From assembly GCA_947594855.1 (NCBI GenBank), contig CANQEL010000015.1:1-55438 (forward strand): a DNA stretch of 55,438 nucleotides. Direction: 5' to 3'. The number at the start of each line of letters is the position of its first letter. Positions within the stretch are counted from its first letter, which is position 1. This DNA is from an uncultured Lachnospiraceae bacterium. Lineage in GTDB: Bacteria; Bacillota; Clostridia; Lachnospirales; Lachnospiraceae. The notes under the pieces are model-generated. The model was given only the letters and a program-made list of their open reading frames with translations, was not told where the DNA came from and made no database searches. The translations under genes and the position numbers were made by a program. Positions 26,941 through 31,342 of this stretch are shown here, piece after piece.

Positions 26941-27195
26941 TTACTTACTGCTCAGATATTTTTCAATATCATTTACAGCTGTAGTTTCATCTATGCCGTC
27001 TGCATAAACTGTAACCATTTCCCCTGGGAAAATTCCCAGTGACATCATACCAATAATGCTTTTTGCATTTACTTTCTTATTATCATATTCAACATCAATA
27101 TGACATTCATACTTGCTTGCCACCTGTACAAGTACTGCTTCAGGCCTAACGTTGCGGCTTTCCTCAATGCTTACATTGATTGTTCTTGATATCAT
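26941..27195 (-). CDS. crh: Crh-like HPr protein lacking the PTS histidine
   Basis: The 84-residue HPr-fold protein aligns without gaps to HPr. The residue at position 15, His in PTS HPr, is Asn (ESRNVRPEA), while Ser46 in AKSIIGMMSLGI is kept. It therefore cannot carry phosphohistidine but should be a substrate of HprK at Ser46, like Bacillus Crh, which acts as a corepressor of CcpA. Its start has AAAGGAGG and lies inside the end of whiA, a 32-base overlap. The whiA-crh order matches Bacillus, and hprK is in the same operon. Confidence 0.87.
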   Translation of the reverse strand: MISRTINVSIEESRNVRPEAVLVQVASKYECHIDVEYDNKKVNAKSIIGMMSLGIFPGEMVTVYADGIDETTAVNDIEKYLSSK

Positions 27196-28120
27196 TTTTT
27201 TCCTCCTTTTGCCTCCGCAGATTATCAGCTATCTCACTAAGCTTTCTTAATCTGTGATTGACTCCCGATTTGCCAAGAGGCGGATGAAGCATTTCCCCCA
27301 ATTCTTTTAATGATACATCCGCATACATGGTACGCATCCGGGCAACTTCCTGAAGATGTTCAGGAAGATTTTCGAAATTCATATTATCCCTGATATACAT
27401 TATATCCTGTATCTGCCTGTGAGCCGCCCCAGTAGTCTTACTTATATTTGCAGCCTCACAATTCACCTTTCTGTTTACAGAATTACGCATCTCCTTATAT
27501 ATCCTGATATTTTCAAAGCTCATAAGTGCAACATGAGCTTCCATTACGCTTAATATATCTGCAATCTGCGCTCCCTCCTTAATATATACCACATAATTTT
27601 TTTTACGCATGGTATACCTGCATCCGATATTAAACGCATTTAAAATATCTTTAAGCCTTTCAGCTTTTTTTTCATCCTCCGCCGCTATTTCAAAATGATA
27701 CGATTTGGCAGGGTCGGTAATTGAACCTGCTGCCATAAACGCTCCTCTTATAAACGCCCTCTTACAACATGTATTCTGTACCACAAGTCCGCTTACTATG
27801 TTATGTTCATCAAGCTTAACTGCCTGCAGTATATATTTTACCATATCATTATCAATAACAGCTACCTGATAGTATGTATTGTTATGGTTTCTTCTAACCA
27901 TAACTTCCGCTTTAACTTTAAATGTTTTCTCTAATAAAATAAAGTATTTAGCCGCTACTGTCAAGTTTTCCGTACCAACAGTAATGTAGCTGCCATAATT
28001 CCCTGAATACCTGTATCTGCCGCAAAAAGAGATTATTGCCGCAATCTCGGCTATTCTGCAATGCCTTGCCGGGCTTATCTGTTTTAATAATTCATCCTTT
28101 ACCTGTCTTGAAAATGACAT
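27164..28120 (-). CDS. whiA: WhiA DNA-binding protein
   Basis: The 318-residue product has the WhiA layout: an N-terminal LAGLIDADG-like fold (segments RGAFMAAGSITDP and YHFEIAA) and a C-terminal helix-turn-helix (VSLKELGEMLHPPLGKSGVN). WhiA influences division and sporulation-related genes in Gram-positives. It starts 13 bases after the MurB-RapZ gene (GGGAGCAGGG upstream) and its last 32 bases overlap crh. Confidence 0.94.
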   Translation of the reverse strand: MSFSRQVKDELLKQISPARHCRIAEIAAIISFCGRYRYSGNYGSYITVGTENLTVAAKYFILLEKTFKVKAEVMVRRNHNNTYYQVAVIDNDMVKYILQAVKLDEHNIVSGLVVQNTCCKRAFIRGAFMAAGSITDPAKSYHFEIAAEDEKKAERLKDILNAFNIGCRYTMRKKNYVVYIKEGAQIADILSVMEAHVALMSFENIRIYKEMRNSVNRKVNCEAANISKTTGAAHRQIQDIMYIRDNMNFENLPEHLQEVARMRTMYADVSLKELGEMLHPPLGKSGVNHRLRKLSEIADNLRRQKEEKNDIKNNQCKH

Positions 28121-28133
28121 ACCCTGCTCCCAA

Positions 28134-29402
28134 CTACTTATCTATATCTCTATGTTTTAAATTTACAGTATATTCCTCTGCCAAAAGACATTCCCTTAAA
28201 GCTCTTGCAATCGTTACTGAACGGTGTCTTCCGCCTGTACAGCCTATTCCGACCAACGGCATTTTTTTCTCTTTTTTGGCATATTCCAAAATATCTTCTT
28301 TAATTTTTTTTATATATTTTACCGCTTCTTCTGATGACATCACATAATTATATACATCATCATCATTCCCTGTTTTATCCCTAAGCTCATCCACATAATA
28401 AGGATTAGGCAGGAACCTCACATCAATTATCATATCGCATACGGGCGGTTTTCCGTACTTATACCCGAATGTGAGAATATTTAATATATTTTCTTTCGTT
28501 TTACCGACAATCTTTACTTCTGTTTCAAGTTTAACCCCTGTATTCCTATATACCGTATCCTGAACATGGGCAATTACGTCGAGAATGTCTTTTGCCGTCG
28601 CATCTTTTACATTTATTACGAATCCCGCATGTTTCTCAGACACCATTGCCCCGCCTGACTTAAATCCTTTCAGGCCGCACTGTTCAATAAGCTGTCCGGC
28701 AAAATATCCCTCCGGCCTTTTAAACGTGCTTCCGGCGCTTGCATATGAAAGCGGCTGTTTTTCCCTTCTGCGGTTATTATAATCACTCATTTTTGTCTTT
28801 ATTTCTTCTTTATTTCCCGCATTTAACTTAAAACACGCAGAACATACAATATAATCTTTTTTCTGTATTATACTGCTTCTGTAACCAAGTTCAAGCTCCT
28901 GCGCCGTAAGCCTTAATATACTGCCATTAGAATCGCACACATCGGCATATACTATGACATCCTTTATTTCTCCGCCATAAGCCCCTGCATTCATTACGAC
29001 CGCTCCGCCTACGCTTCCCGGTATTCCTGATGCAAATTCAAGTCCTGAAAAACCTGCTGATGCGGCATATCCTGAAAGTGACGGAAGAGACGCTCCTGCT
29101 CCCACAGTGATAATATCATCGTTTAACGTCATATCCGCCATATCTGCGCCTATGTGTATTATAAGTCCGTCATAACCGTCATCAGTAAACAGTACATTGC
29201 TTCCATTGCCAAGTACGTAATAATCAATGTCCTTACTCCTGCACATCTTTACTATTTCAGAAAGAGATTCCGCATCATATGGTTCCACAAGACATGCGGC
29301 TTTTCCCCCGGCCTTAAATGTGGTATATTCTTTCATGCTTACATTGGTTTTAATATTAAGTTTAAGATTAAGCCTTTTAAGTTCATCACATATATAATCC
29401 AT
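28134..29402 (-). CDS. murB: MurB fused to the C-terminal domain of RapZ
   Basis: Residues 1-300 are a full MurB, the FAD enzyme that makes UDP-MurNAc: FKAGGKA, LGNGSNVLF, SGIPGSVGGAV, SAGSTFKRP and the terminal LETEVKIVG with its catalytic Glu. The frame continues in phase into residues 306-420, which match only the RapZ/YvcJ C-terminal domain: NILTFGYKYGKPP, DVRFLPNPYYVDELR, GIGCTGGRHRSVTIA and a terminal KHRD. The RapZ N-terminal P-loop kinase domain is absent. In Escherichia coli this C-terminal domain binds glucosamine 6-phosphate and small RNAs. Separate murB and rapZ genes are the usual arrangement. Starts 16 bases after the ROK gene. Confidence 0.9.
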   Translation of the reverse strand: MDYICDELKRLNLKLNIKTNVSMKEYTTFKAGGKAACLVEPYDAESLSEIVKMCRSKDIDYYVLGNGSNVLFTDDGYDGLIIHIGADMADMTLNDDIITVGAGASLPSLSGYAASAGFSGLEFASGIPGSVGGAVVMNAGAYGGEIKDVIVYADVCDSNGSILRLTAQELELGYRSSIIQKKDYIVCSACFKLNAGNKEEIKTKMSDYNNRRREKQPLSYASAGSTFKRPEGYFAGQLIEQCGLKGFKSGGAMVSEKHAGFVINVKDATAKDILDVIAHVQDTVYRNTGVKLETEVKIVGKTKENILNILTFGYKYGKPPVCDMIIDVRFLPNPYYVDELRDKTGNDDDVYNYVMSSEEAVKYIKKIKEDILEYAKKEKKMPLVGIGCTGGRHRSVTIARALRECLLAEEYTVNLKHRDIDK

Positions 29403-29418
29403 ATAAGATCACCTGCAA

Positions 29419-30360
29419 TCATGCATTATCCATAACCATTTTAATACAGCCGTAAAAGCCTGCATCATTTCCAAGCATGGCTATTCTGAATTTCTTATTC
29501 TTTAATGTATTCATGGAATACATATTATAATACTTCTCAATTTTTTTAATCAGGAATTCTCCTGCTGCCGACACTCCGCCGCCTATAACAAATACCTCCG
29601 GGTCCGTTACGCACGCTACATTTGAAAGAGCCATGCCAAGATATTCCATTGCTTTATCAACTGCCTTATCTGCAGCTTTATCACCTGCTTTTGCCCTGTC
29701 AATTACAATTTTTGCATCCAACTCTTCACTATCAGGCACATTCATTATATTTTTCGCAATTCTTACAATCCCTGTCGCCGAAGCATACTGCTCAAGACAT
29801 CCCCTGCTCTTACAGTTACAAAACTCGGTTTCGTCAGGATTAACAGTCATATGACCTATTTCGCCTGCTGCGCCCACACTTCCTGCATGGATTTTTCCAT
29901 CTATAATTACTCCGCCGCCCACTCCGGTTCCAAGAGTAATCATAATAAGATTGCTAAATCCCTGTCCGCCGCCTTTCCACATTTCTCCAAGGGCAGATAC
30001 ATTTGCATCGTTTCCGACTGTAATTAATGGTATGCCTGATATATTTCTGAACTCCCTGCACACATCTACCGACTTCCAGCCGAGATTCACACATTCATGA
30101 ACCACTCCGTCAAAATCTACCGGTCCCGGAACTCCTATCCCGACTCCGGCTATACTTTGGCAGTTTATATTTTTATCCGCGCACACTTTCTTTAAAGAAA
30201 CTGCTATATCATTAAGTATATGGCTTCCATCGTCGCTTATATCGGTAGGTATTTCCCATTTTTCTGCAAGTTTTTCACTATCAGGCCCTTTTTCATACAA
30301 TCCAAGCTTAACGCTCGTTCCACCGACATCTGCGCCGGCATAATATAATATATCTTCCAT
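29419..30360 (-). CDS. ROK family glucokinase
   Basis: The 313-residue sugar kinase has the phosphate loop DVGGTSVKLGLY, the catalytic NDANVSALGE, GTGVGGGVI and the ROK zinc motif FCNCKSRGCLEQYAS. It probably phosphorylates glucose in the cytoplasm. It begins two bases after hprK ends, so translation is coupled. Substrate choice between glucose and other hexoses cannot be fixed from sequence. Confidence 0.88.
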   Translation of the reverse strand: MEDILYYAGADVGGTSVKLGLYEKGPDSEKLAEKWEIPTDISDDGSHILNDIAVSLKKVCADKNINCQSIAGVGIGVPGPVDFDGVVHECVNLGWKSVDVCREFRNISGIPLITVGNDANVSALGEMWKGGGQGFSNLIMITLGTGVGGGVIIDGKIHAGSVGAAGEIGHMTVNPDETEFCNCKSRGCLEQYASATGIVRIAKNIMNVPDSEELDAKIVIDRAKAGDKAADKAVDKAMEYLGMALSNVACVTDPEVFVIGGGVSAAGEFLIKKIEKYYNMYSMNTLKNKKFRIAMLGNDAGFYGCIKMVMDNA

Positions 30361-30362
30361 TA

Positions 30363-31298
30363 TCAGTCTTCCCTGTTTGTATTCATCATATTATCCATTA
30401 CCCTGTTATACATTTCCTTGGCAGCATTGTAGCCCATCTGTTTCTGCCTGAAGTTAACTGCCGCCGCCTCACATATAATTGCAACATTACGGCCCGGCCT
30501 TATAGGTATTGAATGGCACACCACCTTATTGCCAAGGAATTCCGTATACTGCTCCTCAAGTCCCATTCTGTCATAATCTGAATTCTTATTCCACTCCTCA
30601 AGTTTTATAACAAGATCAATTGAACATCTGTCCTTAACGCCTTCAACACCAAACAGTGCTTTTGCATCTACTATTCCTATTCCCCTTAACTCAATAAAAT
30701 GTCTTGTAATGTCAGGCGCAGTACCCATGAGAAGTTCATCACTTTCTTTGATTATCTCTACAACATCATCCGATACAAGTCTGTGCCCCCTGTGGATAAG
30801 TTCAAGCGCAACTTCACTCTTACCTATTCCGCTTTCACCCATTATCAGTACGCCTTCACCATATATATCTACAAGCACTCCGTGGATAGACATTCTGGGA
30901 GCAAGTTCAACCCGAAGCCACCTTATTACTTCTGCCATAAATGCCGAAGTCGTTTCCTGTGTCCTGAGTACCGGCACGCCCATCTGATATCCGAGTTTTA
31001 TAATATCATCCGACACGCTCATCCCGCGGCAGTATATGATACATGGCACCCCATGGTCCATAAGATTCTTAATTGTCTCAGCTCCATGGTCATCTGTAGT
31101 CTGCTCCATATAAGTGTGCTCAACATGCCCTATAATCTGTATCCTGTGATTATCAAAATGTTCAAAAAAACCTGCGAGCTGAAGAGCCGGCCTGTTAAGG
31201 TCATATTGTATTATTCTTATTTTATCGCAATTAATATTGGTAGTAAGATTCTCAAGTTTCATCTTTGTAATTAATTTACTTAATTTTACCGAATTCAT
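30363..31298 (-). CDS. hprK: HPr kinase/phosphorylase
   Basis: The 311-residue HprK has the P-loop GESGIGKSEVALEL and the family signature around RGIGIVDAKALFGV. It phosphorylates and dephosphorylates Ser46 of HPr/Crh in response to glycolytic state. ATG 31298 has GAGGAGG seven bases upstream; the open frame starts slightly earlier at a TTG inside that site. It is first of hprK, ROK kinase, murB-rapZ, whiA, crh, placing enzyme and Crh substrate in one operon. Confidence 0.95.
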   Translation of the reverse strand: MNSVKLSKLITKMKLENLTTNINCDKIRIIQYDLNRPALQLAGFFEHFDNHRIQIIGHVEHTYMEQTTDDHGAETIKNLMDHGVPCIIYCRGMSVSDDIIKLGYQMGVPVLRTQETTSAFMAEVIRWLRVELAPRMSIHGVLVDIYGEGVLIMGESGIGKSEVALELIHRGHRLVSDDVVEIIKESDELLMGTAPDITRHFIELRGIGIVDAKALFGVEGVKDRCSIDLVIKLEEWNKNSDYDRMGLEEQYTEFLGNKVVCHSIPIRPGRNVAIICEAAAVNFRQKQMGYNAAKEMYNRVMDNMMNTNRED

Positions 31299-31342
31299 AA
31301 AATACCTCCTCAAAAAAACTAACCGTTGTCTGTTTAATTTTC

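Follow-up and report, generated by a model that had tools for sequence, protein, structure and literature searches.

In-frame fusion of MurB to the RapZ C-terminal domain in an uncultured Lachnospiraceae bacterium, and related RapZ-C fusions

RapZ and its homologue YvcJ combine a P-loop N-terminal domain with a C-terminal domain (RapZ-C or CTD). In Escherichia coli RapZ the isolated CTD binds glucosamine 6-phosphate (GlcN6P) with a KD of 10 nM and the N-terminal domain is suggested to be auto-inhibitory (PMC7073468). Crystal structures show malonate or sulphate in the CTD pocket (PMC5737377), and the same pocket contacts the backbone of the small RNA GlmZ (PMC9841335). By itself the CTD is not enough for RNase E to cleave GlmZ (PMC5737377), and the RNA-binding region is described as confined to Enterobacteriaceae (PMC7073468).

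The homologues outside Enterobacteriaceae are less well described. One review presents the molecular role of Bacillus subtilis YvcJ as not characterised and states that evidence of RNA binding by YvcJ is lacking (PMC10216114). The B. subtilis protein is reported to interact with GlmR (PMC7525490) and to bind UDP-GlcNAc, binding being disrupted by the Walker A mutation K22A (PMC7525490, PMC9841335). Enterococcus faecalis YvcJ shows a thermal shift with UDP-GlcNAc and none with GlcN6P, and its K18A variant fails to bind UDP-GlcNAc (PMC10986989). In B. subtilis lacking glmR, overexpression of murB raised sensitivity to cefuroxime and a glmS1 mutation relieved the effect; thus flux through MurB matters for the UDP-GlcNAc pool (PMC6171935).

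A gene that joins RapZ-C to MurB, an enzyme of cell-wall precursor synthesis, is present in a 55,438-nucleotide contig of an uncultured gut Lachnospiraceae bacterium, here called the window. Its features are as follows.

28134..29402, minus strand: murB::rapZ-C fusion gene, 422 aa, a single open frame from the ATG at 29402 to a stop codon ending at 28134
28494..29402, minus strand: MurB part, aa 1-303, with FAD_binding_4 and MurB_C
28518..28520, minus strand: Glu295, last MurB active-site residue, the same in 53/53 rows of MurB alignment A2
28137..28487, minus strand: RapZ C-terminal domain, aa 306-422
28395..28472, minus strand: TFGYKYG...IDVRFLPNPYY, with the K170, D182 and R184 equivalents kept and Tyr as the H190 equivalent
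28218..28244, minus strand: GCTGGRHRS, phosphate/ligand pocket loop, equal to E. coli RapZ 246-254 (pocket residues from PMC5737377)

A preliminary description of this DNA had proposed one uninterrupted frame here that encodes a complete MurB followed by the RapZ C-terminal domain alone. The frame and its coordinates are correct, and the strand, which had been left unstated, is minus. The MurB part is complete: NF010480 matches aa 12-303 with 372.9 bits (cut-off 259) and TIGR00179, a second MurB model, scores 268.7 bits (cut-off 144.5), the match being full-length. PF22740, the RapZ C-domain model, matches aa 307-421 with 122.7 bits (cut-off 27). The full RapZ model NF003828 scores 130.3 bits, under its cut-off of 244, and covers only model positions 143-278 of 278, so the protein is not a two-domain RapZ and the P-loop domain is missing, as had been proposed. 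The motifs quoted in that description (FGYKYG, DVRFLPNPYY and GCTGGRHRS) are all present; in the protein TFGYKYG starts at aa 311, IDVRF at 326, LPNPYY at 331 and GCTGGRHRS at 387.

Residues Y174, R175, S225 and E295, which we take to have the active-site roles of MurB, are invariant in the 53 aligned rows. The active-site Ser is backed by the title of structure 1uxy (an S229A mutant), and in another fused protein (L121) the Glu equivalent to Glu295 of the window aligns with Glu308 of 1hsk, a hand-counted number. No second murB was found in the genome, where TIGR00179 matches the fusion gene alone; since this is the only MurB found, it must be active if the usual peptidoglycan route is followed. 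As the sole murB match, the fused MurB very likely has UDP-GlcNAc-enolpyruvate reductase activity.

A second rapZ was likewise not detected in this genome (97.6% complete, 33 contigs), where NF003828 matches the fusion gene alone at E values up to 10. The same architecture is present in two other assemblies, with 85% (G003) and 74% (G002) identity and no internal stop codons. A frameshift or a private assembly deletion, the artefacts that the preliminary description had set against its own reading, is very unlikely, as three species carry the same architecture. Separate synthesis of RapZ-C from an internal start finds little support in the sequence: in a scan of aa 261-330, ATG, GTG or TTG codons occur only at aa 324 and 328, within the domain, and no ribosome-binding site is obvious by eye at either. 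Rfam models at gathering scores match two tRNAs in the whole window and nothing else.

The gene order around the fusion is hprK, ROK glucokinase, murB::rapZC, whiA, Crh-like HPr and dnaE (the last by eye).

30363..31313, minus strand: hprK, HPr kinase/phosphorylase (TIGR00679, 362.2 bits)
29419..30360, minus strand: ROK-family glucokinase, directly upstream of the fusion (TIGR00744, 270.5 bits)
27164..28120, minus strand: whiA, directly downstream of the fusion (TIGR00647, 278.4 bits)
26941..27195, minus strand: HPr-family protein, Crh-like by eye (TIGR01003, 71.2 bits, cut-off 47.9; NF010354, 77.6 bits, under its cut-off of 123)

The hprK and whiA neighbours named earlier are thereby borne out. 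The crh assignment stands in part: the protein passes the general HPr model and falls under the cut-offs of the single-protein models that it matches. By eye it appears to lack the His at what we presume to be the catalytic position of HPr and, like Crh, to retain a Ser in its regulatory part. The fusion also stands where relatives carry a full rapZ, between murB and whiA.

Ten species of the genus (G000, the window genome, to G009) were compared. The fusion is in three (G000, G002, G003). Two have a two-domain rapZ before whiA, closely behind murB in one (G001) and with ∼2.2 kb between murB and rapZ in the other (G004). The remaining five (G005-G009) have murB and then whiA, with no NF003828 match at 1e-3. 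The genus thus seems to be losing rapZ. In the family, 333 of 397 drawn genomes have NF003828 matches, 332 of them above the cut-off, and the one below is the window genome; G000 and G004 are the only genus members matched in that draw. No match was found in 64/397 family genomes, or in 43/320 among the most complete. With five of ten genus members and 64 of 397 family genomes unmatched, the RapZ domain is dispensable. These absences are not absolute, because a B. subtilis control that has YvcJ and GlmR was missed by NF003828 at 1e-3 and 1e-5 and by TIGR01826 at 1e-3; NF003828 did match it at E up to 10.

The window fusion descends from the MurB and the RapZ of its own genus. On a RapZ-C tree of 47 rows (12 fused domains, E. 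coli and 34 of 73 two-domain RapZ) the two-domain RapZ of the genus and the three fused domains form one group (support 100/99). On a MurB tree of 50 rows (9 fused, 7 from the genus, 30 contig-scan loci and 4 of the 5 relatives described below, L128 being left out) the window fusion clade is nested within the genus (94/97, not a starred branch). The simplest history would start from an ancestral operon with the order murB-rapZ-whiA, in which an in-frame deletion ran from the end of murB into the linker between the RapZ domains. Along with the P-loop domain the murB stop codon would have been lost, leaving RapZ-C attached to the sole MurB detected in this genome.

A search for other proteins with both MurB and RapZ-C had been suggested, and it revealed a recurrence that the preliminary description had not foreseen. 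Among the best 80 loci of a contig scan are two further MurB::RapZ-C proteins (L037 and L038, ∼40% identity). In the family of G430, NF003828 matches 109 of 115 genomes, 103 above the cut-off; the other six have a C-domain match only, in open frames of 438-453 aa. All six loci read hprK - murB::rapZC - whiA, and five two-domain relatives fetched from the 103 read hprK - murB - rapZ - whiA. On the MurB tree this second clade sits with its own family (100/100). A single clade of both MurB::RapZ-C groups is rejected there (lnL difference 105, AU p 0.0001), and with it the possibility that one fusion passed horizontally from one MurB group to the other. On the evidence of this tree, the clade-2 fusion is of independent origin; the shorter RapZ-C tree on its own does not reject a single origin (F1+F2, p 0.12). 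Each of the nine MurB-fusion genomes has a single murB match and a single NF003828 match.

The regulatory setting differs between the two clades, as all six clade-2 fusion genomes have GlmR as well as the glmS ribozyme, and neither is found in the three fusion genomes of the window clade. Neither GlmR nor glmS ribozyme status can explain the fusion in both lineages, their status being opposite in the two. In the window's genus TIGR01826 (GlmR) matches 0/10 genomes and the glmS ribozyme is in one of ten. Separately, GlmR is matched in all six clade-2 genomes (G429, G430, G440, G458, G487, G492) versus none of the five relatives with a two-domain rapZ (G507, G466, G461, G434, G523), a pattern that may reflect lineage history or a functional link.

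A third form was found in a draw of 398 genomes of the phylum, 390 of which have an NF003828 match, 384 above the cut-off. The six weakest matches come from the window genome, from G773 and G830, where a contig end seems to interrupt a two-domain gene, and from three genomes that are the only members of family f69 among those searched. In these three (3/3), GlmR/YvcK carries at its N-terminus, in frame, a RapZ-C that lacks the N-domain (TIGR01826, 383 bits against L133). The product has 474 aa in two genomes and is ended by a contig edge in the third.

L133:1459-2883: RapZ-C::GlmR
L132:1459-2883: RapZ-C::GlmR
L131:1480-2278: RapZ-C::GlmR, cut by the contig end

In both uncut loci whiA follows the fusion, and gap, pgk and tpiA, read by eye, also follow in two longer loci of the family (L135, L136). 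In G579 and G879 the murB match is on another contig than RapZ-C::GlmR. The RapZ-C tree does not reject grouping of the GlmR fusion with either MurB group (F2+F3, p 0.51; F1+F3, p 0.45); as this short tree cannot decide, the argument that the GlmR fusion arose separately is its different partner.

The fused domains were compared in an alignment of 12 fused and 73 two-domain RapZ sequences (two of the latter from contig-end genes) plus E. coli. Thirty-two columns show conservation of 95% or more among the two-domain proteins, and eight of these were marked as pocket or near-pocket (K170, D182, R184, C247, T248, G249, H252, R253). None of the eight is changed in any of the 12 fusions, versus 12 of the other 24 changed in at least one. 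The Fisher p value for this contrast is 0.014, 0.061 without D182 and R184, and 0.27 with only the four conserved residues defined in the crystal paper, the columns not being independent. The pocket residues T248, G249, H252 and R253 and the nearby C247 and K170 are all identical in the window protein. H190, marked too, is not conserved even in two-domain RapZ (Tyr in 48, Phe in 24 and His in 1 of 73) and is Tyr in 12/12 fusions. As the pocket is conserved except for H190, ligand sensing on MurB, one of two roles raised in the preliminary description, stays a live idea, and amino-sugar sensing by the fused domain is plausible.

P231 and E236, present in 73/73 and 72/73 two-domain RapZ, are lost in all 12 fusions, and the segment carrying them is also shorter in the proteins of the window group and in five of the six from the second MurB group. 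We infer that this surface once faced the RapZ N-domain. In both the second MurB group and the GlmR group, P187 has given way to Lys or Arg. In the dimer strand of the window protein D182 is kept, and Y179, V180 and F181 are Met, Ile and Ile. As a side point, the strict Walker A pattern G.[SA]GAGK is unmatched in 14 of 71 two-domain RapZ proteins (for example L035, L041, L046 and L056).

The fused RapZ-C is under purifying selection like that on MurB. NG86 dN/dS values for RapZ-C and MurB, respectively, are 0.118 and 0.112 for the window versus G003, 0.225 and 0.146 for the window versus G002, 0.139 and 0.183 for G003 versus G002, and 0.076 and 0.063 for L037 versus L120; of ten pairs attempted, several in clade 2 were saturated or gave no value. 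RapZ-C is retained throughout species whose MurB parts are 75-86% identical in the window clade and 65-70% in clade 2. These values, this retention and the unchanged pocket columns argue against reading the C-domain as a harmless, decaying tail in a genus that is losing RapZ. The five genus members without a rapZ match and the long stem of the fused domain speak for such a remnant, which we regard as disfavoured and very improbable. The stems of the fused clades on the RapZ-C tree are long (0.62, 0.70 and 1.63), a length compatible with relaxed constraint and equally with changed constraint.

The second role raised earlier, an RNA-linked function carried on MurB in the manner of E. coli RapZ, gained little support. 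The window protein retains a basic residue at five RNA-contacting positions (K170, R184, R196, R238, K251), and the pocket that contacts the GlmZ backbone in E. coli is conserved. On the other hand, K194, R211 and K270 are replaced by Glu, Ser and Tyr. The basic C-terminal RNA-binding motif (K270, K281, R282, K283) is not preserved as a whole: K281 is kept and the protein ends there, without the last residues of the tail. With the Enterobacteriaceae restriction of the region, the lack of RNA evidence for YvcJ and the insufficiency of the isolated E. coli CTD for GlmZ cleavage cited above, this function appears extremely improbable.

AlphaFold2 models of two fusion types have pLDDT 94.1 and 91.9 and pTM 0.75 and 0.83; as RapZ-C is in only 4/53 and 4/31 alignment rows, the packing of RapZ-C on MurB in them is unproven. 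The first RapZ-C strand in the model starts 11 residues past Glu295. A fold search gave 13 MurB and 5 RapZ structures among the 50 matches listed, the rest being mostly FAD-linked oxidoreductases.

The explanation that we tentatively favour, short of thinking it probable, is that RapZ-C on MurB is a ligand-binding module that controls MurB and arose by in-frame deletion within the operon. RapZ-C would have kept its ability to bind GlcN6P or a related small, phosphorylated amino-sugar metabolite. Placed a few residues past the active-site Glu, it would tune MurB in cis or pair MurB molecules through the RapZ-C dimer, and formation of UDP-MurNAc would thereby follow precursor supply. The fusion would keep the small-ligand sensor, drop the half that reads UDP-GlcNAc, and sit on an enzyme that binds a UDP-GlcNAc derivative, a view drawn from the YvcJ, RapZ-CTD and murB/glmS1 literature cited above. 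The authenticity of the fusion with one murB and no separate rapZ in 9/9 genomes, its recurrence (MurB twice, GlmR once), the intact pocket columns, the near-equal dN/dS of the two parts in the window and G003, the model scores, GlcN6P binding by the isolated E. coli CTD and the weight of MurB flux in B. subtilis are all consistent with it. Against it stand the missing GlcN6P thermal shift of E. faecalis YvcJ, Tyr in place of the E. coli H190, the dependence of the pocket contrast on the set of columns chosen, the dispensability of RapZ in genus and family, the long stems, and the single origin that RapZ-C alone does not reject.

Alternatively, RapZ-C could serve another partner independently and have been linked to an operon neighbour by deletion, MurB remaining unregulated. 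The fused neighbours follow operon order, GlmR, the partner in the third lineage, is the gene after rapZ in L129 and L130, and the pocket is intact. However, none of the fused lineages found has kept more of RapZ than the C-domain, and its partners (MurB twice, GlmR once) are all proteins of the UDP-GlcNAc pathway, a coincidence that neighbourhood could still explain. A tether of this kind is conceivable, if somewhat unlikely.

Control could also run in the opposite direction, MurB having replaced the lost RapZ N-domain so that its occupancy by UDP-GlcNAc-enolpyruvate controls the output of RapZ-C. Loss of UDP-GlcNAc binding in the K22A and K18A variants, the placing of another UDP-GlcNAc-pathway protein beside RapZ-C in three lineages and the loss of P231 and E236 in every fusion point in this direction. 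Against it, GlmR lies C-terminal, not N-terminal, of RapZ-C; we consider the proposal distinctly unlikely.

Control of MurB by its fused RapZ-C would add a control point at MurB. The presence of RapZ-C on MurB, with two origins, and on GlmR in a single lineage is in keeping with an add-on that lets proteins of the UDP-GlcNAc pathway sense a ligand, and the domain may be a reusable sensor across lineages. A broader proposal, which we think unlikely, treats RapZ as a device of two parts in which the N-domain, the part that reads UDP-GlcNAc, can be exchanged; in three bacterial lineages it would have been replaced, by MurB twice and by GlmR once. If this were true, a single chain would sense both the substrate of the fused protein and an amino-sugar phosphate, which would put the committed peptidoglycan branch under metabolite control in cis, with no need of small RNAs. 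The recurrent fusions in any case point to the working partners of RapZ-C. They also separate the halves of RapZ: the pocket is kept in all fusions seen, and P231 and E236, candidates for facing the N-domain, are released in all. The function of RapZ-C outside Enterobacteriaceae, where genetics is hard, becomes testable in one protein as the MurB rate with and without ligand. Both domains are already known. No earlier report of the joined architecture was found in the open-access literature searched; domain databases may well show it.

Compared with two-domain RapZ/YvcJ (NF003828; E. coli structures 5o5o and 5o5s), the fusion lacks the P-loop/Walker N-domain that YvcJ needs for UDP-GlcNAc binding and E. 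coli RapZ for its tetramer, and it stops short of the last part of the RNA-binding tail of E. coli RapZ. The fusion resembles MurB (NF010480; 1hsk, 3tx1, 4pyt) in being complete, with invariant active-site residues and as the sole murB match of its genome, and differs in the C-terminal RapZ-C that begins so soon after the active-site Glu. With the RapZ-C::GlmR proteins of the third lineage it shares a RapZ-C that has no N-domain and is in frame with a UDP-GlcNAc-pathway protein and, in the uncut loci, whiA as the following gene, whereas there the partner is GlmR/YvcK and is placed C-terminal of RapZ-C.
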